A DNA stretch of 35,083 nucleotides from a virus: the IMG/VR virus record IMGVR_UViG_3300032207_000456, positions 1 through 35,083 of that record. One strand, written 5' to 3'. Below are positions 5,567 to 14,657 of this stretch, piece by piece (the first letter of the stretch is position 1; each line of letters opens with the position of its first letter). A program made the position numbers and the translations under genes. The notes under the pieces are model-generated. The model saw nothing but the letters and a program-made list of their open reading frames with translations. It did not search any database and was not told the DNA's origin.

Positions 5567-5616
5567 AATATACATGATTTTTAGTGCCATGGGGAGAATG
5601 GTGGACACTCTCTCAA
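5567..5616 (-). promoter_or_regulatory. Early promoter with distant -35 box
   Basis: On the minus strand TATATT (5567-5572) is followed by the common leader AAAGAGTCAAAGGAACA before the ATG at 5543. TTGAGA (5611-5616) lies 38 bases upstream of the -10 and is followed by GAGTGTCCACC, matching the block found at the promoters at 1312 and 4129. No good -35 box lies at 16-18 bases. The distant box overlaps the last codons of the upstream oxygenase gene. Confidence 0.5.
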
Positions 5617-6206
5617 CTGTCACGACCACTGCATGTGATAAATTTTGTGACAGCATATCTTTCATGTTCGATCACATCTGTCACACTGTGTTGTACCCAT
5701 CCAGGAAAAAGAACCGTTTGATTGTTTTTTGTCTCAATCTCTAAATCATATCTTGGGAAGTATAAGTTTCCACCACTGTCTTCCTCACGACAAAATGTAC
5801 TGCTGGTGATAACATTAACCCAGTAGTCTGAGTGAGGATCATATCCATCACCAGGAACATATCTTCTGACCTTGGTAAAGTCTTCATTAGAATGTTTATA
5901 TGTCTTCCAGTATTCATCATGATCAACCAAATCATCAATAAATTCTTGATTATTAAAGAAAAAATTATGAGTTATGTTTAGAATATCAGAAACATCACGT
6001 TGTCTATAGAGTGAATCTAATGACATACCTTGCGATCCTGTCAGATATGTTCCATCTTCCATTTTAGCACCACCATAACCATCTGGACCATTTAATTTGT
6101 CGAGAAGAAATGTCAATTCTCTCCAAATTAGTTCCAATTCACCTTCATTAAAGGTATCTTTTATGATGACATGTAAAAATGGTTCATTGAAAATCTGATA
6201 GTCCAT
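5613..6206 (-). CDS. 2OG-Fe(II) oxygenase, prolyl-4-hydroxylase type
   Basis: The 197-residue protein has PHSD (H125, D127), then GGNLYFPRYD, then FPGWVQHSVTDV (H173) and R183 ten residues later. HxD plus a distal His bind iron and the Arg binds 2-oxoglutarate, so all four key residues are present and the enzyme should be active. Related enzymes hydroxylate Pro or other side chains or small molecules; the substrate cannot be read from the sequence. It is the last of the oxygenase genes and overlaps the 72-residue gene upstream by 23 bases. Confidence 0.82.
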   Translation of the reverse strand: MDYQIFNEPFLHVIIKDTFNEGELELIWRELTFLLDKLNGPDGYGGAKMEDGTYLTGSQGMSLDSLYRQRDVSDILNITHNFFFNNQEFIDDLVDHDEYWKTYKHSNEDFTKVRRYVPGDGYDPHSDYWVNVITSSTFCREEDSGGNLYFPRYDLEIETKNNQTVLFPGWVQHSVTDVIEHERYAVTKFITCSGRDS

Positions 6207-6402
6207 CTTCTTGCTCCTTCATCAATTCTTGCATGGTGTCCATAAACTCATCTGCTGTTGTGAGATTATCCACAGCATGAATCATTTCACCCAATGCTTT
6301 AACAACAAAAGGTTTTTCGTTTCTTGCAGCAAATGCCAATGCCTCACGCAAATGTGCTTGAGCAGAGTCTAGTTCGTCTTTAACTTGATCAGATAGTGCC
6401 AT
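6184..6402 (-). CDS. Small conserved helical protein (72 aa)
   Basis: The product begins MALSDQVKDELDSAQAHLRE and is helical throughout, with the segment ALAFAARNEKPFVVKALGEM that I recall from other cyanophage small ORFs. It lies between two oxygenases, overlapping the upstream gene by one base and the downstream one by 23. No catalytic motif. A role as a partner of its neighbours is possible from position alone. Confidence 0.62.
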   Translation of the reverse strand: MALSDQVKDELDSAQAHLREALAFAARNEKPFVVKALGEMIHAVDNLTTADEFMDTMQELMKEQEDGLSDFQ

Positions 6403-7055
6403 TAGTTTTTCTTTCCTGTGTAGTTTCTATTTACATCATCCCAATAAAAATTGGGAAGTCTTTTATCATCTGCGTCTGATGAATACAGACCCCATCCAGT
6501 TGCAATATACTTATCACAGGAATAAACAGCATTTCCACGATGAACGTGAGTATAAAATGCTGGCCAAATTAACATCGTTCCTGCCTTTGGTTGTACTCTA
6601 CGACCTTGCCAAAGAAACTCAGTTTCACCTTCACCTTCGGGAATGTCATTCAAATATAACATCCAAACAGAAGATCTGTCAACAACACTTAAATCATTTG
6701 TCTCACAATGCCAGTCATGAAATCCACCTCTTGGTGGAGTTTTCTGAAGTTTTACATCTTCAAAGTGCATCTTAATATGAGGTAGAACCCAATACTTTTC
6801 AACATAATAATCCCAACAATGTTCAACTACTTGTCTAATAAGGTTTGCACAAGGATCGTCAAAATCCAAGTACCATTGATAATCATGACGACCAAGATGA
6901 AAACATTCACCTTCATCACATCCTAATCCTGTTTTTATTTTAGAATCAGGATCATCAGGATGCTTGTAGTTATCTTCAAAGTATTGAATAATACGATCAC
7001 ATGTCTGTTTATCTAAAACATCTGGATATACATCAATAAAGTCATTATGCTTCAT
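6402..7055 (-). CDS. 2OG-Fe(II) oxygenase with HxE metal site
   Basis: I start at ATG 7055 (MKHNDFIDVYPDVL), which overlaps the preceding TGA as ATGA; an ATG three codons earlier is less likely. The 217-residue product has GGFHDWHCE (H116, E118 in an HxE variant of HxD), a distal His in WPAFYTHVHRG (H172) and Lys182 in DKYIATGW, ten residues later. This fits the prolyl-4-hydroxylase-like family, with Lys binding 2-oxoglutarate as in animal P4H. Substrate unknown. The surrounding genes point to modification of fibre proteins or another virion target, which is inference. Confidence 0.78.
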   Translation of the reverse strand: MKHNDFIDVYPDVLDKQTCDRIIQYFEDNYKHPDDPDSKIKTGLGCDEGECFHLGRHDYQWYLDFDDPCANLIRQVVEHCWDYYVEKYWVLPHIKMHFEDVKLQKTPPRGGFHDWHCETNDLSVVDRSSVWMLYLNDIPEGEGETEFLWQGRRVQPKAGTMLIWPAFYTHVHRGNAVYSCDKYIATGWGLYSSDADDKRLPNFYWDDVNRNYTGKKN

Positions 7056-8413
7056 ACAACCCAAGTGATGATAGAATATCTAGTTCCTTCAGTTACAGGC
7101 ATAATCTCATGTGGATACATGAAATTGGATGGGAAAACTAATACATCACCAGCACCGAGTTTGTATACCAATTCACGATTGAATAGTGCGACTTCACCAC
7201 CTTCATAACCATCATTCATTGACATAATGACAGTCAATGCTCTAGGTTGCTCCTTAAAAGAATCACTGTGCTGAATATAAAAGTCACCAACTTCATACTT
7301 CAACAGTTCATATCCACTGTCTTCTTGAATCTCCAAATCAAATTCTGGATGCCGTTCTTGATATTGAGCAATAATATCTTTTACGATACCAAAGAGATAA
7401 TTATCCATCTCTCTTCTATCTTGTTCATTTGCCTCTTCAATTACACCTTGATCAGAAATAGGAATGAACTCACACTTTCTTGCTCCAGGATCATGCCCAC
7501 TACCAGTTAGTGTCTTCTCCCAGTAATTAGTTGGTGCATATTCTTCTAGGAGTTTATCACAAAAATCTGGATCAATAAATTCACTTTCATGCCAGATAAA
7601 ATGTTCCAAACCCAAAGAACTTAAGTTTTTCACTTTCGTTTGAATTTCTGGTGTTTCTTTCTTCTTCAGAAACTTTTCATACTTACTATTTGCTACAACG
7701 ACATTATCAAAGTCAACGTAACCTTCATTTTTATCATCTTCTGGGACAAAATCTATTGAAGACTCTTCAAGTTCTCTATATTTTCTAGGAAGAATTGCTT
7801 TAGGACTTGCGTGTTCAAATTTGTTTCTCATTGTTTCATACTCCTTTCTCAGTGCTTCATGATCTTCGATTGCCTCTGTTGGTATTTTATCAAAATAAGT
7901 ACAACCATATAATCCCCTACTTCTCACATAATGTAGAAAGATTTGTGCATAATGTTCACCTTCAAATTTAGTTCTCCAATGTGGAGCAATACAACCCAAG
8001 TATAACATAGCGTCACCAGGATTTAAGGTGACGCATTTCTTTTCTTTTTCTGGTGTCTCAATCCAAATTGCCCATGGTTTATCACCACCAAGATGCACCG
8101 TCATTGATATTTCACAAGAGGGACGATCTGTGTGCCTTGCGAGAACACTATCTTGATGATATATCCTAGAATAAGTGTATGTTGGTAGAACAGTTTCACC
8201 AATAAGTTCACTAACTTCACTAGTTTTATTACATAACAACTCTACAGCAGGATGAAACATAAAACATGACGCAGAGTTTGGTGCTTGTTCATCACCATCA
8301 AACTCAAACTGTGCGTCTGTTATGATAAACTCTTTTTCTAGTCTTTTAGCATAATCTAGATCAATAAAACCAGGAACAACCATATAGTTGTTCTTCAATA
8401 ATTCAAGTTTCAT
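7052..8413 (-). CDS. Double-domain 2OG-Fe(II) oxygenase
   Basis: This 453-residue protein holds two dioxygenase domains. The first (about 1-170) has RHTDRPSCEISMTVHL (H94, D96), NPGDAMLYLGC and a distal His145 before HWRTKFEGEHYAQ. A charged linker (about 180-260) follows. The second (about 268-453) has IQHSD (H382, D384), EGGEVALFN, GDVLVFPS, H435 and R445. Both iron sites look intact. Domain two has the classic Arg ten residues after the distal His; in domain one the 2-oxoglutarate-binding residue is less obvious. Tandem fusion suggests processive or paired modification of one substrate. Its TGA overlaps the next oxygenase gene. Confidence 0.8.
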   Translation of the reverse strand: MKLELLKNNYMVVPGFIDLDYAKRLEKEFIITDAQFEFDGDEQAPNSASCFMFHPAVELLCNKTSEVSELIGETVLPTYTYSRIYHQDSVLARHTDRPSCEISMTVHLGGDKPWAIWIETPEKEKKCVTLNPGDAMLYLGCIAPHWRTKFEGEHYAQIFLHYVRSRGLYGCTYFDKIPTEAIEDHEALRKEYETMRNKFEHASPKAILPRKYRELEESSIDFVPEDDKNEGYVDFDNVVVANSKYEKFLKKKETPEIQTKVKNLSSLGLEHFIWHESEFIDPDFCDKLLEEYAPTNYWEKTLTGSGHDPGARKCEFIPISDQGVIEEANEQDRREMDNYLFGIVKDIIAQYQERHPEFDLEIQEDSGYELLKYEVGDFYIQHSDSFKEQPRALTVIMSMNDGYEGGEVALFNRELVYKLGAGDVLVFPSNFMYPHEIMPVTEGTRYSIITWVV

Positions 8414-8419
8414 ATGTCA

Positions 8420-9766
8420 TCACTTATCGTTTTTGTCTAGAACTTCTTTCAGTGCAGCAAACCATTTAACTGCCTTATCTAAAGGTATTTCAGTTCCATC
8501 TCCTCGTTCTTGATCTGTAAGAGTAGAGTATAGTTTTTCTGGATCAATCTCATCCATCATTGACAAAATGTCATTGACTGAATACTCTTGACCACTCTCA
8601 AGTTCTTGTCTTTCTAGACTTTCACCTGCAAGTTTAGATAGTTCAGTAGGATCAGTGTTTTCTGCCTTATATGAGTCAAGAAGTCTTGCTCTTTGAGTTT
8701 CCCTATACTCCAATTCTGCTCTTTCAAATTCTCTTTCTAGTGCATCATCAAGTTCATCATATGTCTGCTCATTGTCCATCTTTTGAAGAACCTCTTCATG
8801 TGCTCTCATAACAATGTTCATCTGATTGTCAACTTCTGATTTCATTAGTTTCTTTTCATATTCAAGTTCGAGAAGCATCTTTTCTCTTTCAGCATTAACT
8901 TGTTCTACTGCATATTGTGCTTCTTTCCAACCTGCTTCAACTGCTTGTTTTTGCATCTCAAGTTCTAACTTAGAAATTTCAAGTTCTTCATCATCAAGCA
9001 TCCTTGTTTTTTCAAGAACTTCTTCTCTTCGGGCCCTTTCTTTATCCTCTAGAAGAATACTCTTTTCACTATCTTCAATTTCACGATCTACTTTATCACG
9101 TTCCATTTGAAGTAATTCATTATACTGCTTTCTCTCTTCAATAAATGCTTCCTTCTCTTTCTCAAAGTCATGATATAGATCATCATACTTTTTAGAAAGT
9201 TCTAGAGATTTAGCAGCAAAAAATTCATCAGCTTTTGTTGCTTCGAGTCCTACTCTTTCTGCTTCTCTTGCTGTTTTTTCTCTTTCAAGTTCTAATCTAG
9301 CAGTGTGTTGCTCATAAATTTTTGCTTGCTCTGCTTTATCTTTTGCAGTATAAAGTTCTTCTCTCTCTTCACGAAGTTCTTTATTTTGTCTCTGAAGATC
9401 TTCAATGATAACAAGTTGTGCTTCTTTTTCTAGTTTATCTAGATTCAATTCTTCAATCTGAGCAGCAAGATTTTCTTCCTCTGCTATTGCAGCAGCAAGT
9501 TCTTTTTGCTCATAGAGTGTAAGGAAGGAATTAAAATAATCTAGGTATGGTTGAATGATAGAATCAAATTCGTCTTCACCAAAAATTTTATTTGGTACAG
9601 GATCTTCTCCAGGAATATCTTCATATTCCAATGAACCTCTACCGTCTTTCCACTGAATTGCATGGATAGTTTCATCATCAAAACCCCAAGGTGCATCATC
9701 CTCAAGATCAACAGTCTTACCATCTACAATAATTTTTTTATCTTCTGGGATAATAGAAATTCTCAT
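8420..9766 (-). CDS. Long coiled-coil protein with assembly-type N-terminus
   Basis: Residues 1-80 (MRISIIPEDKKIIVDGKTVD, then ETIHAIQWKDGRGSLEYED) resemble the small IHAIQW domain that I recall in phage tail-fibre-associated or assembly proteins. Residues about 90-390 are an almost unbroken Glu/Lys/Leu/Arg helix with heptad-like spacing, so a very long coiled coil. The C-terminus (about 395-448) is a short helical domain, with SVNDILSMMDEIDPEKLYST. It overlaps the four-cysteine gene by four bases and lies beside the fibre-tip genes. It could be a fibre-assembly chaperone, a fibre shaft or a scaffold; chaperone-like is my first choice, with modest confidence. Confidence 0.6.
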   Translation of the reverse strand: MRISIIPEDKKIIVDGKTVDLEDDAPWGFDDETIHAIQWKDGRGSLEYEDIPGEDPVPNKIFGEDEFDSIIQPYLDYFNSFLTLYEQKELAAAIAEEENLAAQIEELNLDKLEKEAQLVIIEDLQRQNKELREEREELYTAKDKAEQAKIYEQHTARLELEREKTAREAERVGLEATKADEFFAAKSLELSKKYDDLYHDFEKEKEAFIEERKQYNELLQMERDKVDREIEDSEKSILLEDKERARREEVLEKTRMLDDEELEISKLELEMQKQAVEAGWKEAQYAVEQVNAEREKMLLELEYEKKLMKSEVDNQMNIVMRAHEEVLQKMDNEQTYDELDDALEREFERAELEYRETQRARLLDSYKAENTDPTELSKLAGESLERQELESGQEYSVNDILSMMDEIDPEKLYSTLTDQERGDGTEIPLDKAVKWFAALKEVLDKNDK

Positions 9767-10149
9767 TGTTGCTCCTCGTCGGACTCGGGTAGTAAGTTTT
9801 CTTCTGTATTATCTATACCTTCAATCTGTTCAATGTATTCAGAAACATTAACACCTTGTGCTTCACACATATCAAGATACATGTTACCAACAGCATCTAA
9901 CATTTGTTGATTACTGTCATTTGCCTTCACCATTTCATTACGGAATGATTCAACAGCAGAACTGGTAGATCTTTGTTGTTGACTATTCTCAATCATTAAC
10001 ATTGGCATCCATTGTATTGCACAAGACCAATGATCTACTGGATTTCCAGTATTAGGATCTGAACCTACAATATGTGTGTACCAAGCACACTTATGTTCAA
10101 CACAATCCTTTTTAATAAGAGGACACCACTTACCAGATGCTTTAGTCAT
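9763..10149 (-). CDS. Four-cysteine conserved phage protein (128 aa)
   Basis: The N-terminal 45 residues contain C9, C16, C21 and C43 (WCPLIKKDCVEHKCAWYTH, then DHWSCAIQW), a spacing that suggests a metal site, zinc or iron-sulfur. The pattern is one I know from conserved phage proteins near tail genes, without proven role. The remaining part (MLMIENSQQQRSTSSAVESF onward) is helical and ends in an acidic tail. A T4-type late promoter lies 20 bases upstream (10169-10176), so it is a late gene and probably the first of a late transcript into the oxygenases. Confidence 0.68.
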   Translation of the reverse strand: MTKASGKWCPLIKKDCVEHKCAWYTHIVGSDPNTGNPVDHWSCAIQWMPMLMIENSQQQRSTSSAVESFRNEMVKANDSNQQMLDAVGNMYLDMCEAQGVNVSEYIEQIEGIDNTEENLLPESDEEQQ

Positions 10150-10168
10150 AAGATGAAATTCAGTGTAT

Positions 10169-10176
10169 TATTTATT
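10169..10176 (-). promoter_or_regulatory. T4-type late promoter, AATAAATA
   Basis: On the minus strand AATAAATA is followed by ATACACTG. The promoter at 12040 carries the same ATAAATAATACAC string. It lies about ten bases after the stop of the arginine-rich fibre-tip gene and 20 bases before the four-cysteine gene. Confidence 0.6.
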
Positions 10177-10185
10177 ATAGCACGA

Positions 10186-11460
10186 TCAATCCAAACTGCA
10201 AACAATCACATCGATGTATCGTACTCTCAATGGTGCTAAAGGAACAGTAAATGATGCTGGTGATGCTGTAAATGGATGAGTATGTGCTTGACCACCACCA
10301 GTTGGTGATGTTGCTGGTGCATTAGTATTACTTCCTCTAATAGTACCACCAGGAGTTAAAGTTCTTGTGGAAACTCTTATACTTGTTACCTGTGGGTATC
10401 TTTGTGTTGTACGATATGCTCTTGGTTGTCTATAAGATGCAGGATTTCTTTGAGAAACTGACACTCTGAATGGAATACTCACTCGGAAAGCATTTCTTTG
10501 TCTGAATGAATATCTCACTCTGAATGTTCTTGGTTGCCTCTGTCTAAACTGTCTTCTCTGTCTAGCGTTAAGTGGTACTCTAGTGTTTCTAGGTTGTCTA
10601 AATTGTCTTCTCTGTCTAGCAGATCTAGGTTGTCTAACCTGTCTTCTTTGTCTATTTGCACCATTTCTGGGTTGTCTTCTTACTGCTCTTCTTGGGAATC
10701 TATCATTCCTTCTTCTTCGTCCACCTCTTCTTCTTGGTTCTCTATCATTATTTCTAATACCAGCACGGAAACTAAATGGAATTGGTCTTCTACTTCTTCC
10801 TGTATCAGCACGGAAGCTAAATGGTCCTCTAGATCTTACATCAGCACGGAAACTTCTTGGTTGTCTAAAGGTAAATGGTGCTCTAGATCTTGTATCATAT
10901 CTAACTCTTTGGTTCCTGGGTTGTCTCTGTCTGAGTGGAACTCTTTGTCTTTGTTCTTGTCTATAATTACGAGGTTGTCTTACACTTACTGGTTGTCTAA
11001 AGTTAATAATGACTCTTTGACTTACACTTGCTCTAGTTATTGCCCTGACATTATATCCACGTGGTTGTCTGTTATCTGTTCTAAATGGTGAAGAACCTGC
11101 GGATGATGTATATGTACCAGGATTACTTCCAGTATTATGAGTGTGTGCTGGTAGTTGTTGCGTAGTTAATGTTGTATCTCCTACAGTTCCATCAGTTACT
11201 GATGTTGCTGGACCACTGGCACCAGTACCATTCCATACTGATGAAAGTGCAAGTGATCCTCCAGAAGATCCTCCAGTTAAAGGAAGAGTATTATCTACAA
11301 CTCTAAGTGCTTTATCATTGTCAGTAGTATCTTGTGTCCATCCAGTTGGTGCTGATGCTTGATAAAACACCATCACAGAACTTTGAGGAACGATTCCGTA
11401 AAAGGAATCTAATATAGTTCCATTACCAAATTCAATACCATCTGCTTGTAAAATTGACAT
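10186..11460 (-). CDS. Fibre-tip adhesin with arginine-rich RQPR insert
   Basis: Residues 1-110 and 367-424 match the neighbouring 178-residue gene: MSILQADGIEFG at the start, FYQASAPTGWTQ (the collar-like segment), QQLPAHTHNTG, then NTNAPATSPTGGGQAHTHPF and VRYIDVIVCSLD at the end. The two HxH motifs (HTH at 106-108 and 393-395) recall the metal-binding HxH of T4 gp37 and gp12 fibre tips. Between them lies an insert of about 240 residues with nine RQPR tetrapeptides and about 30 per cent Arg, no Lys and few acids. It probably binds a receptor at the fibre tip. ATG 11460 follows GAGG. The insert is in frame, so not a pseudogene. Confidence 0.78.
   Translation of the reverse strand: MSILQADGIEFGNGTILDSFYGIVPQSSVMVFYQASAPTGWTQDTTDNDKALRVVDNTLPLTGGSSGGSLALSSVWNGTGASGPATSVTDGTVGDTTLTTQQLPAHTHNTGSNPGTYTSSAGSSPFRTDNRQPRGYNVRAITRASVSQRVIINFRQPVSVRQPRNYRQEQRQRVPLRQRQPRNQRVRYDTRSRAPFTFRQPRSFRADVRSRGPFSFRADTGRSRRPIPFSFRAGIRNNDREPRRRGGRRRRNDRFPRRAVRRQPRNGANRQRRQVRQPRSARQRRQFRQPRNTRVPLNARQRRQFRQRQPRTFRVRYSFRQRNAFRVSIPFRVSVSQRNPASYRQPRAYRTTQRYPQVTSIRVSTRTLTPGGTIRGSNTNAPATSPTGGGQAHTHPFTASPASFTVPLAPLRVRYIDVIVCSLD
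10363..11082 (-). repeat. Degenerate RQPR/RQRRQ-coding repeat region
   Basis: The minus strand repeatedly encodes RQPR as AGA CAA CCA AGA (plus strand GGTTGTCT). The nine RQPR copies are surrounded by variants such as RQRRQFRQ, PFSFRAD and FRVS. Spacing is irregular and copies are diverged. Corresponds to residues 127-366 of the 424-residue protein. Confidence 0.85.
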
Positions 11461-11468
11461 TTATAACC

Positions 11469-12005
11469 TCACTGGAAACGGCAGAGAATGACATCAATAT
11501 ATTGAACTCTCAGGTCCATAGTTCCACTAAATGGTGATGAAGCACCAGTAAATGGGTGAGTATGTGCTTGACCACCACCAGTTGGTGATGTTGCTGGTGC
11601 ATTAGTATTTACAGCACGTCCACCAATACCAGGAGATCCTGGACTAACTGTTACTTGAGAACCAGCATTATGTGTGTGTCCAGGAATTTGTTGCGTAGTT
11701 AATGTTGTATCTCCCACACTACCAGCAGCAGTTACAGTTCCACTAATTGGTCTAACACTTGTTGGAAAAATGGTGGAAAATGGTTGTCCACCAGGACCAG
11801 CAGTTCCACCAGAACCAAATCCTCCACCAGTTCCACTTACAACTCTAAGTGCTTTATTATTATGTGTATTAACTTGCGCCCAACCATTTGGTGCTGATGC
11901 CTGATAAAATACTGCTACACTATTTTGAGGAATAATTCCATACTTAGAGTTTAAGATAGTGTTGTCAGAACCAAATTGTATACCACTTGCTTGAAGAATA
12001 GACAT
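11469..12005 (-). CDS. Short fibre-tip adhesin with two HxH motifs
   Basis: The 178-residue protein has the same ends as its neighbour (MSILQASGIQFG and VQYIDVILC), the collar-like FYQASAPNGWAQV segment, a Gly-rich stretch (about 58-75) and HTH motifs in IPGHTHNAG and QAHTHPF. Only about 35 residues separate the motifs, so it represents the compact form of the tip domain. In T4, HxH pairs coordinate iron in trimeric fibre tips; a trimeric tip here is inference. A late promoter lies 35 bases upstream (12040-12047). It is followed after eight bases by the arginine-rich paralogue, so both are on one transcript. Confidence 0.78.
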   Translation of the reverse strand: MSILQASGIQFGSDNTILNSKYGIIPQNSVAVFYQASAPNGWAQVNTHNNKALRVVSGTGGGFGSGGTAGPGGQPFSTIFPTSVRPISGTVTAAGSVGDTTLTTQQIPGHTHNAGSQVTVSPGSPGIGGRAVNTNAPATSPTGGGQAHTHPFTGASSPFSGTMDLRVQYIDVILCRFQ

Positions 12006-12039
12006 ATTATACCAATTACTAACTACAAATGACGTGTAT

Positions 12040-12047
12040 TATTTATC
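12040..12047 (-). promoter_or_regulatory. T4-type late promoter, GATAAATA
   Basis: On the minus strand GATAAATA overlaps the last codon and TAA (12043-12045) of the oxygenase gene and is followed by ATACACG. It would drive the fibre-tip gene starting at 12005. Confidence 0.65.
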
Positions 12048-12702
12048 CAACATTAAATGCAATAGATATTCTCTCTTGATCACTAAAATGTGGTGTCACA
12101 TAATGACCAACTGTGGATGGCATCAAATATAAACTACCCACTTTAGGTTTGATTACAAATTCACACCAATTCTGAATATCAGCAAATGCAGCATTATGAT
12201 TTGATGGATCAGATCTAAGAATAGTTAAGTTTCCCTCATTCTCTTCAAGATCATCAGGAATCATTGGATAATAAATTCCAATCACTGTGCAACCAGGATG
12301 TGTATGATAGACATTATATCCCATTCCTTTGTTGATGTTAATCCACCAACCAATCTGATCATCACCAACTCTAACCACAGATCCACAATCTTCTAGCATA
12401 TCATTTGCTAAATCAACTACATTTCTAGCAAGATTTTGAATAGCAGGTGTAACTTCTCTTCTAATTCGTGCCAGTTCATATACTTGACTTTGCCAACCAC
12501 CACCAAAGTTAGACTTACTAACTCCATTGGGATATTTATCTTTTAGTTCAAAACACTCATCAACAATCTCCTGATTATTAAAGTCTAGATTGTAACCATA
12601 AAATGGAGTCGTGAACAGATCAATTTTGTTTCTATTTTCTACATTTAGAGGATAAAAATTATCTTCATTTGGATTTATATCAGGTCTAAATTTATGCTCC
12701 AT
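12043..12702 (-). CDS. Putative 2OG-Fe(II) oxygenase, TIGR02466-like
   Basis: The 219-residue product has NKGMGYNVYHTHPGCTVIGI (H133, H135), the conserved YYPMIP, and a late KPKVGSLYLMPSTVGHYVTP with H200 and R211 before ISIAFNVG. This matches the TIGR02466-type layout: HxHPG, a G-x-L-x-L-x-P segment, the His, then R-x-S-x-x-FN. In this family the first ligand pair is often HxH rather than HxD. Substrate is unknown. It overlaps the next oxygenase gene by one base. Confidence 0.75.
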   Translation of the reverse strand: MEHKFRPDINPNEDNFYPLNVENRNKIDLFTTPFYGYNLDFNNQEIVDECFELKDKYPNGVSKSNFGGGWQSQVYELARIRREVTPAIQNLARNVVDLANDMLEDCGSVVRVGDDQIGWWININKGMGYNVYHTHPGCTVIGIYYPMIPDDLEENEGNLTILRSDPSNHNAAFADIQNWCEFVIKPKVGSLYLMPSTVGHYVTPHFSDQERISIAFNVG

Positions 12703-13433
12703 TATTTTAGTGCCCTCGGATTTTTGAAGAAAAATACTTGATTGATTCTAAATTCGGCATCACTATAATGATCTGCAAAATAATTTCTACCAGTTAGATC
12801 CATACTGTGATAGTAATATGATCCTTCAAACATCACAAACCGATTGAACTTTGAACGAAATCTAATTATGATTTCCCATAGATTTTTGGGTGTCCATGGG
12901 ATAGCATGTTCATCTCTCACACCACCATTTTCATCCAAAGGTAGTACATCAGGATCATCAGTAATTTTTGGTTTATATAAATTTGTTCCTATCTCATTTT
13001 TCTTCGAGAGATAACAAATACCATTATATCCTCCGTCATGATGAGGCCACCAAAAATGACTATCGTATGGGTTTTGTTTAACTTTAGAAAATCTTGTAAA
13101 GTTAGTTACAATCTCATCATCTAATGGATCTTGATCACAAATATCCGCAACCTTATCATACAATGAGCATATACCAGGATGCTTCATCATATGTCTACGA
13201 TCTTCAAAGTATTTTGTATTGAGAGTTCCTCTACCTAAATCCCATTCTGGTCCTACTTTCCACAGTGGTGGTTCAATCGAAAGCAAATAATTATATACAT
13301 CATCAGGTCGTTTATAGAAGTCATCCATCCAGTAAATGTTGGATACTTTGTCACCATCAACGAACTCAATGATATTCATATTTGAGAAATCATTAGTCTC
13401 AAATAGTGTTGGATCTTTGCTTAAATCTCTCAT
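12702..13433 (-). CDS. 2OG-oxygenase-like protein (243 aa)
   Basis: The central part has WWPHHDGGYNGICYLSK (a candidate HxD as HHD, followed by a Gly-rich turn), then GTNLYKP. The end has NRFVMFEGSYYYHSMDLTG (a candidate distal His) and FRINQVFFFKN with Arg. The order fits the dioxygenase double-stranded beta helix, but the spacing between ligands is longer than in the prolyl hydroxylases here, so this is a more distant member. Whether it is active is uncertain. It overlaps neighbours by one and four bases inside the oxygenase run. Confidence 0.62.
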   Translation of the reverse strand: MRDLSKDPTLFETNDFSNMNIIEFVDGDKVSNIYWMDDFYKRPDDVYNYLLSIEPPLWKVGPEWDLGRGTLNTKYFEDRRHMMKHPGICSLYDKVADICDQDPLDDEIVTNFTRFSKVKQNPYDSHFWWPHHDGGYNGICYLSKKNEIGTNLYKPKITDDPDVLPLDENGGVRDEHAIPWTPKNLWEIIIRFRSKFNRFVMFEGSYYYHSMDLTGRNYFADHYSDAEFRINQVFFFKNPRALK

Positions 13434-13993
13434 AAAAATATCTCTCCTATTTTCTTATCATCCAAACAAAAACCAAACACCCATAGTATTCTAGGAGTAT
13501 TACCTTCAGTTACTGTGACCTCATGATGAACCTCAGACACTTGATAGATCAGAAGATCTGTAGCATCTAGGTCATTATATTCTACACCACCAATGATAGT
13601 ATGTCCACCCCTATCTGCTTGCTGTGTAATAGCATTAAAGTGGATTGTCTTCGTATCTGGATAGTATGTAGGATCAATGTGATTTTCTATTCTTCCACCA
13701 GAATATCCAATACCATTTACAATCCCATGACTATATGATGGTGGACTTTTGTATCCATCCAGATCAAAGTAATTTACAATTCTTTGCCTGACAATGTGTG
13801 CAGCATCAGGATAATTTATATGTGGAGCAACTGATTCATTTGGAAATCGAGTTGTAAATCTTGTTCCAGAATTATCAGGGTCCATGTTAGCGTCTTCAAA
13901 GAACTCTTGATGGCAGTTATCAAGAGTCCATTGATTCAGTTCTTTTACATCATCTTGAAACAAAAAGTTTCTAAGAACAAATGACTTAGACAT
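13430..13993 (-). CDS. 2OG-Fe(II) oxygenase (187 aa)
   Basis: I start at ATG 13993 (MSKSFVLRNFLFQDD), because the upstream 25 residues of the open frame lie inside the previous gene and begin poorly. Signatures are RIENHIDPTYYPD (HxD), GGHTIIGGVEYND, LLIYQVSEVHHEVTVTEG (distal His) and Arg in NTPRILWVFGF, the arrangement of prolyl-hydroxylase-like enzymes. It overlaps the preceding gene by eight bases and the following one by four. Substrate unknown. Confidence 0.74.
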   Translation of the reverse strand: MSKSFVLRNFLFQDDVKELNQWTLDNCHQEFFEDANMDPDNSGTRFTTRFPNESVAPHINYPDAAHIVRQRIVNYFDLDGYKSPPSYSHGIVNGIGYSGGRIENHIDPTYYPDTKTIHFNAITQQADRGGHTIIGGVEYNDLDATDLLIYQVSEVHHEVTVTEGNTPRILWVFGFCLDDKKIGEIFL

Positions 13994-14657
13994 CGGTGGT
14001 ACTATATTCACCAGGTCCTTGAGCATTTTCTTCTGCAAATGTAAAATGCTCGTATTCTGCATTGACATTAAATGAGAGAATAATTCTATCTACATCACTT
14101 TGATTTGGTGCAGTGTAGTGCAAAACATATGATGGGAAAAATATCAGTGATCCTTCTCTAATTCCTGGTGGAACAATATTACAAGTTTCAACATCTGCTA
14201 GATTAGGATTCATAAAAACAGTTGGTGTATGATGCTTCGGATCAAACTGAATGAAACATACAGCACTGAATCCTTGACATCCATGATTATGAACCTGATG
14301 AAACTTAGTGGTTGATGCCTTTTCAAACCATGTAGTGCAAACTTCTACACTACATTCAAATGTATCAGCAAGTGCTTCTAATTCTGATTGGAAAATTTCC
14401 ATGATGTCTTCATCATAGGCATATCCCGTATCATAATTATGATGATAATCTGTTTCTACATCTAAACTTGTTTTACTTCCTGTAGCAACTTTAAATTTAG
14501 ATTTATCAGACTTTCTCTTCTCATACATTTCGAGTAGAGCTTTTTTCTTTTCTTCCCAATCCTCCACTTTAAGATGCATAAGAGGAGTAGAAAACATTGG
14601 AATTATGTACTCTTCATTTCCTTGTGGTGGTTCACCATAAATTCCGTAATGTGTCAT
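13986..14657 (-). CDS. Putative 2OG-Fe(II) oxygenase, TIGR02466-like (223 aa)
   Basis: The segment KFHQVHNHGCQGFSAVCFIQ carries the HxH pair. PPGIREGSLIFFPSYVLHY gives the G-x-L-x-x-F-P-S segment and distal His, and DVDRIILSFNV the Arg and the S-F-N end. The layout matches the gene at 12043, so these two are paralogues of one type in a mixed cluster. The N-terminus (IPMFSTPLMHLKVEDW) is typical for the family. It starts one base after the stop of the small basic gene upstream, and may be read through from the early helicase operon. Confidence 0.74.
   Translation of the reverse strand: MTHYGIYGEPPQGNEEYIIPMFSTPLMHLKVEDWEEKKKALLEMYEKRKSDKSKFKVATGSKTSLDVETDYHHNYDTGYAYDEDIMEIFQSELEALADTFECSVEVCTTWFEKASTTKFHQVHNHGCQGFSAVCFIQFDPKHHTPTVFMNPNLADVETCNIVPPGIREGSLIFFPSYVLHYTAPNQSDVDRIILSFNVNAEYEHFTFAEENAQGPGEYSTTDV

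Follow-up and report, generated by a model that had tools for sequence, protein, structure and literature searches.

Why would a virus gather genes for several 2-oxoglutarate (2OG)-Fe(II) oxygenases directly around the genes for its fibre tips? This question is raised by a 35-kb viral contig in IMG/VR (record IMGVR_UViG_3300032207_000456), which we refer to as the window at its full length of 35,083 nucleotides. The source of the window is a marine cyanobacterial virus; among annotated relatives, Synechococcus phage S-SCSM1 (Kyanoviridae, Zhoulongquanvirus; record MK867354) comes closest, with 82% identity over the block in question. On the minus strand, the genes are transcribed in the order helicase, L, K, J, I, H, G, F, E, D, C, B, A2, A (Table 1), where G and F encode fibre tips and A, B, C, H, I, J, and K encode oxygenases. 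The reading that we favor, with a probability of about one in two, is that these genes form part of a fibre-tip maturation module, in which C and other recruited oxygenases would finish the tip or its assembly partners.

We examined the oxygenase assignment of each domain. All seven genes are real minus-strand open reading frames (ORFs) that nearly abut, with gaps of -23 to +37 bp. In S-SCSM1, orthologues of all seven, each annotated as 2OG-Fe(II) oxygenase, surround the orthologues of both tip genes, and the gene order is unchanged. A, B, H, K, and the C-terminal domain of C (CC) scored above the Pfam cut-off for 2OG-Fe(II) oxygenases. CC is of the prolyl 4-hydroxylase (P4H)/PiuC type (PF13640, 1.7e-14) and matched solved structures of that type by profile (3e-8); it shares its gene with the N-terminal domain (CN), which belongs to phrog_2954/3531 (1e-57 to 1e-62) and has its own HxD...H motif, the 2OG residue being less clear. 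CN and I were placed by PHROG families only, the DUF6445 match of I lying below threshold. The P4H likeness of A and B is a PF13640 match only. H and K matched the uncharacterized structures PDB 3bvc and 2rg4, and both fell below the TIGR02466 cut-off. The iron-binding HxD/E...H triad and an Arg or Lys for 2OG were read in each domain and are kept among orthologues, with a conserved HxE replacing HxD in B. The residues invariant in the orthologue alignments were H94, D96, and H145 (CN) and H382, D384, H435, and R445 (CC) in C; H133, H135, D165, H200, and R211 in H and K (HxH...D...H...R); H131, D133, H209, and R229 in I (HxD...H...R); and H105, D107, H157, and R168 in J.

No family was found for J in Pfam, PHROG, or NCBIfam searches. 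Its structural model (predicted local distance difference test score [pLDDT], 94.7) matched the Pseudomonas putida P4H 4j25 (E 7e-9), and the top matches were P4H, PHD2, and WelO5, so that a prolyl-hydroxylase-like fold can be confidently predicted from the model. A partial match of J to CusF in the PDB profile search (0.006) was taken as chance beside this fold result. The AlphaFold model of I (mean pLDDT, 50.9) was not used; the assignment of I, from its motif and weak matches to profiles, is the least certain of the eight. For the remaining domains, the double-stranded beta-helix fold of the superfamily is implied by their family membership. Profile comparison with C gave no match for I and a weak one for J (probability, 38%). 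Peptidyl hydroxylases are among the solved structures most closely related to C and J. An earlier note, made from the sequence of the window alone, had counted seven genes with eight oxygenase domains around the fibre tips; the families, the conserved iron ligands, and the J model bear out this count, with I as its weakest member.

Two names in public records disagree with these assignments. In the RefSeq record NC_070962 (L005 among our numbered loci), gp124, the orthologue of C, is named ferrochelatase, and gp130, the orthologue of I, is named minor coat protein. We rejected the former name because no ferrochelatase family was found in Pfam or NCBIfam and C is an oxygenase. The latter was rejected because the I orthologue has no virion flag in MK867354 and the invariant HxD...H...R indicates an oxygenase. 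The C homologues of phages ACG-2014f and S-T4 also carry the ferrochelatase name.

To place these genes among other phages, F and E served as anchors in a search of 2.9 million viral contigs; two contaminated jackhmmer seeds (a carbamoyltransferase fusion, a small ORF) were left out. The order tip, E, D, and very often C recurs across divergent viral contigs. E has four invariant cysteines (C9, C16, C21, and C43) and an invariant segment, ENS.QQR.T..VES.RNE; it gave no Pfam or confident PHROG match, and we know of no counterpart. At least 570 relatives of E were found in viral contigs, and these adjoin tip genes in nearly all loci examined. D of the window has no Pfam match and is related through its N-terminal part to the D-type protein of phage P-SSM2, PSSM2_030, which belongs to PF16778 (Phage_tail_APC; 8e-12, above cut-off). 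Another D-type protein, CRP-361 gp41, is annotated as a tail-assembly chaperone. D-type proteins thus appear to be tail-assembly chaperones, and the D of the window is a probable fibre chaperone. In P-SSM2 (L035:10315-13470), a tip with collagen repeats (PSSM2_028) is followed by E, the PF16778 chaperone PSSM2_030, and a P4H-type oxygenase, PSSM2_031 (PF13640, 1.7e-16). CN is usually present in a single copy, and in long records with both CN and E the two are no more than ~2 kb apart, as they are in S-SCSM1 and S-SCSM2R. In unrelated phages, the tip-E-D slot holds oxygenases of the CN, CC, B, J, L034, L025, and ORF16 types.

The number of PF13640 genes near E was then compared with that elsewhere, taking genes as independent. 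In the core set, 18 such genes lie within 3 kb of E and 56 elsewhere (6.9-fold enrichment; P 3e-9). In the distant set, the corresponding numbers are 16 and 7 (8.9-fold; P 5e-7, or 5.7e-6 without near-copies). Association of oxygenases with fibre genes across phages, which had been put forward as a test, was therefore found both in related and in unrelated phages, as synteny and as a 7- to 9-fold enrichment near E. These results indicate that the linkage to fibre genes is real and wider than first proposed.

An independent pairing of a particular oxygenase with a particular tip loop was observed in a separate set of phages, the L034 group. The gene for the L034-type oxygenase (167-175 amino acids; PF13640, 2e-5 to 2e-6) either separates the tip from E or follows E and a CC-type oxygenase, and the tip of this group carries the loop SDPG[YV]QVIRGSP[SG]GTTSFQEW. 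The exact loop pattern occurs in 4 contigs of the 2.9 million, all 4 of which have the L034-type oxygenase. Where a close L034-type oxygenase and tip sequence were both available, the loop was present in 5/5 contigs (L034, L132, L214 = L215, and L216), which represent few genomes (four); L218, in which the tip region is not covered, stood outside this count. Between tip backbones with flanks of only 35-60% identity, the loop keeps 90-95% identity, in two gene orders, and its DNA differences are mostly synonymous. Because the pairing occurs in two gene orders, a single adjacent transfer is insufficient as an explanation. A more distant oxygenase of the L034 type, in L133, accompanies a different tip loop.

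We also analyzed the long RQPR loop of F. G and F have the SAPxGW and HxH motifs of a T4-like tip/collar protein. The loop of F contains 26.5% Arg, 9.2% Pro, and no Lys, with a net charge of +67 and ten RQP motifs; the loops of its relatives are 275-365 amino acids long and rich in R, Q, N, and P. In an exact-pattern scan, two adjacent [YF]RQPR units were found in-frame only in F genes and in two RQP-rich ORFs, L118 (a tandem-repeat ORF) and L128 (an unrelated protein), which were set aside as spurious. H or I was present in 23/23 loop-bearing rows with enough upstream sequence, which reduce to ~15 distinct genomes once contigs that are copies are taken together, and in 0/40 loopless loci. In a tree of E and CN, the loop group formed one clade, apart from L057, a contig that starts inside E. 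Since the loop has a single origin, its correlation with H and I does not suffice to tell function from common descent. Within the loop clade, A and B are missing from L020, and B is missing from L023. Among loopless loci, 53/67 have an oxygenase downstream of E, and the P4H-like C occurs with most loopless tips. The RQPR loop therefore goes with H and I, whereas C goes with tips in general. The suggestion in the earlier note that this loop is the natural P4H substrate was not supported, since C also accompanies loopless tips, A and B are sometimes missing, and neither of the enzymes with which the loop is associated (H and I) is of the P4H type. For the first of these reasons, loop composition alone was also discarded as a sign of P4H action. 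The loopless first tips linked to C (L058-L079) share a conserved loop motif, NP[DNA]G...GGDV.R...W.R, which is a possible substrate segment for C.

The virion status of these proteins was read from the GenBank flag in MK867354. In S-SCSM1, the flag is on the orthologue of G (ORF244) and absent from that of F (ORF245). The missing flag of F may reflect trypsin cutting in the Arg-rich loop.

The distribution of oxygenase genes in S-SCSM1 was then considered. According to the S-SCSM1 paper, this phage has 24 oxygenase ORFs, of which ORF240-243, 248, 249, and 251 are named, and the double domain of ORF248 is remarked upon (PMC9602691). These seven named ORFs are the seven oxygenases of the window, so the genes themselves are not new. 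Among the 12 genes nearest to the tip pair, seven encode oxygenases where 1.0 would be expected (hypergeometric P 8e-6; scan-corrected 0.0035). The remaining 17 are mildly clustered too (P 0.035). The earlier statement that one or two such genes are ordinary in T4-like cyanophages proved too low: the literature gives 1-5 per genome (PMC9602691), and we found about 20 oxygenase matches in P-SSM2. As the other 17 genes of S-SCSM1 lie elsewhere, high counts per genome do not alone signify fibre modification.

Late-promoter-like elements were found at the tips. ATAAATA is the core of T4-type late promoters. In loop-clade loci, it lies ahead of G in 13/16 and ahead of E in 12/22, against a background of 1.7%, and ahead of none of 104 oxygenase gene starts. 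The whole window contains 7 exact matches against 9.6 expected, which is not above chance, and the element is informative only through its position and conservation. Its positions suggest two late units, G-F and E-D-C-B-A2-A; transcription of H, I, J, and K would start farther upstream.

In the mechanism that we propose, four components would form the core and be expressed late, together with the virion proteins: the tip gene or genes, E, an assembly chaperone of the D type, and C with its two oxygenase domains. Side chains on exposed loops of the tip or, alternatively, on a partner during trimer assembly would be hydroxylated by C and, by extension, by several of the other oxygenases (H, I, J, K, A, and B) before the tip is mounted. 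Pro would be just one option for the modified residue. The slot would be filled by different oxygenase families in different phages, and at least one group would pair one specific oxygenase with one specific receptor-binding loop. While the genes, their intact motifs, the synteny, the enrichment, the co-occurrence of loops with oxygenases, and the late-promoter-like elements were observed directly, we infer that the enzymes are active, that the tip is their substrate, and that host binding or stability may be affected. Several observations weigh against a maturation module. Seventeen of the 24 oxygenases of S-SCSM1 are located elsewhere, among baseplate, replication, sugar, and photosynthesis genes, and for this reason not every oxygenase serves the fibre. 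Most tip-E loci of the distant set have no detected oxygenase, though one that is present is usually at the tip; C has no tip beside it in S-T4, ACG-2014f, and S-SCSM2R; and H, I, J, and K lack late-promoter-like elements of their own. The enrichment P-values given above ignore the shared ancestry of the phages. None of the seven S-SCSM1 oxygenases carries the virion flag, as expected for enzymes, and the flag gives no support. Of the dedicated virion protein-modification module that the earlier note envisaged, the association with fibre tips is supported; the RQPR loop as P4H substrate is not.

The main rival is a metabolic role with incidental clustering. The oxygenases would then be auxiliary metabolic genes with small molecules, nucleotides, lipids, or host surface sugars as substrates, and their pile-up beside the fibres would mark a recombination hot spot. 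Reprogramming of host metabolism is how the S-SCSM1 authors read their oxygenases, and it is the published view for this and other cyanophages (PMC9602691). The oxygenases outside the block, some of them beside sugar genes and themselves mildly clustered, fit this explanation, as does S-SCSM2R, where E-D-C heads a glycosyltransferase cluster. However, the tip-E-D-C order is preserved rather than shuffled over a large divergence, the enrichment persists in small phages with just one or two oxygenases, and one oxygenase tracks one tip loop though the intervening sequence differs. We consider the metabolic explanation possible and somewhat doubtful. Hydroxylation of Pro in the RQPR loop of F by P4H-type enzymes, as first put forward, would suit the ten RQP motifs in a repetitive Pro-rich chain, the joint presence of the loop with H or I in 15/15 distinct genomes with coverage and 0/40 loopless loci, the resemblance of the modelled J fold to prolyl hydroxylases, and the known viral P4H of PBCV-1 with peptide substrates, as cited in PMC9301287. 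It is nevertheless improbable: the correlation amounts to one evolutionary event, the enzymes that track the loop are not P4H-type, C accompanies tips that lack the loop, A and B can be absent, and the F orthologue has no virion flag.

The oxygenases might also act on the assembly partners E or D, or aid iron loading of the HxH tip, rather than modify the tip itself. Iron binding by HxH motifs is known for the T4 gp37 tip, and such motifs are present in the tips considered here. E and D are the most constant neighbors of C, and S-SCSM2R keeps E-D-C together without an adjoining tip; the L034-type oxygenase, by contrast, tracks the tip loop and may sit directly between tip and E. We give this explanation little credence. 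A more specific form of the maturation module, which we put forward as speculative and rather unlikely as a whole, is that marine phages exchange cassettes of a tip plus an oxygenase, the oxygenase being a hydroxylase dedicated to the post-translational modification of one receptor-binding loop, and host recognition depending on the residue that it modifies. The window would be an extreme form of such a cassette, with eight catalytic domains for two tips.

The block was compared with the closest known systems. S-SCSM1 differs in interpretation: in the available text its authors give host metabolism, with no link to tips, E, or D described there (PMC9602691). The PBCV-1 enzyme vCPH (PDB 5c5t) is a virus-encoded P4H whose fold J resembles and is thought to act on Pro-rich proteins of the virus itself (Eriksson et al. 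1999, as cited in PMC9301287). PBCV-1 is a eukaryotic algal virus with one enzyme, whereas the window has several families of predicted enzymes in a tail-tip setting. Bacterial P4Hs (3itq/5hv0 of Bacillus anthracis; 4j25 of P. putida, which acts on EF-Tu) and PiuC/PKHD proteins resemble CC by profile and J by fold. The match of H and K is to TIGR02466/PF13759, putative 2OG oxygenases with function unknown. The fibre tips resemble the T4-type tip with its collar/needle domains and HxH motifs, G aligning with the solved tail fibre 9qgo (3.6e-6); F differs in bearing its 283-amino-acid RQPR loop inside the tip. For D, the likeness is to the PF16778 tail-fibre assembly chaperones, through the P-SSM2 protein. 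No hydroxylated phage tail fibres came to light in a search of the literature.

Of the marine phage genes that lack an explanation, those for 2OG oxygenases rank with the most common, and they are generally assigned to host metabolism or DNA repair. For a subset of them, the conserved module of tip, E, chaperone, and oxygenase suggests a different role that can be tested, namely, maturation of the receptor-binding tip. If this is true, enzymatic hydroxylation would join the ways in which phages diversify host recognition, and the names ferrochelatase and minor coat protein would need correcting in public records. The row in P-SSM2, a well-studied Prochlorococcus phage, is a tractable case.

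Table 1. Features of the oxygenase and fibre-tip block (positions in the window)
Feature	Position	Strand	Description	Match or other support
A	5613..6206	-	2OG-Fe(II) oxygenase, P4H-like, HSD...H...R; variable within clade	PF13640 2e-8
A2	6184..6402	-	Small conserved protein between B and A	phrog_1179
B	6402..7064	-	2OG-Fe(II) oxygenase; conserved HxE triad, Lys for 2OG; TTG start	PF13640 9.5e-9, phrog_61
C	7052..8413	-	Two-domain oxygenase (CN, N-terminal; CC, C-terminal); tip-module core member in many phages	
D	8420..9766	-	N-terminal domain as in tail-fibre assembly proteins, together with a long coiled coil; probably a chaperone of the fibre	
E	9763..10149	-	Four-Cys protein, widespread beside tips, no family name	
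ATAAATA ahead of E	10169..10175	-	Late-promoter-like element (unit E-D-C-B-A2-A)	
F	10186..11460	-	Fibre-tip protein, HxH motifs, long RQPR loop	
F loop	10285..11133	-	RQPR loop of 283 amino acids	
G	11469..12005	-	Plain fibre-tip protein	S-SCSM1 orthologue carries virion-protein flag
ATAAATA ahead of G	12040..12046	-	Late-promoter-like element (unit G-F)	
H	12043..12702	-	Oxygenase, TIGR02466-like; accompanies loop-bearing tip in genomes with coverage	PF13759 6.5e-16
I	12702..13433	-	Probable 2OG oxygenase; accompanies loop-bearing tip in genomes with coverage	phrog_1644 2e-30, weak DUF6445
J	13430..13993	-	Oxygenase without family match; modelled fold nearest prolyl hydroxylases	Predicted structure
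K	13986..14657	-	Oxygenase, TIGR02466-like	PF13759 4.5e-11

The start of J is most likely at 13993, because the ATG there agrees with the S-SCSM1 gene and gives an 8-bp overlap with K; the start at 14068 in the mechanical ORF list would overlap K by 83 bp. Contig 3300032193_000397 (L013; 47.7 kb), whose F is identical to that of the window, was taken to stand for the window and not for a second genome. In S-SCSM2R, the tipless E-D-C row is located at L002:14201-16284, and a relative of the tip lies 39 kb off. The seven ATAAATA matches in the window, all on the minus strand, are at 10169-10175, 12040-12046, 12533 (inside H), 19610, 19972, 25658, and 30980.

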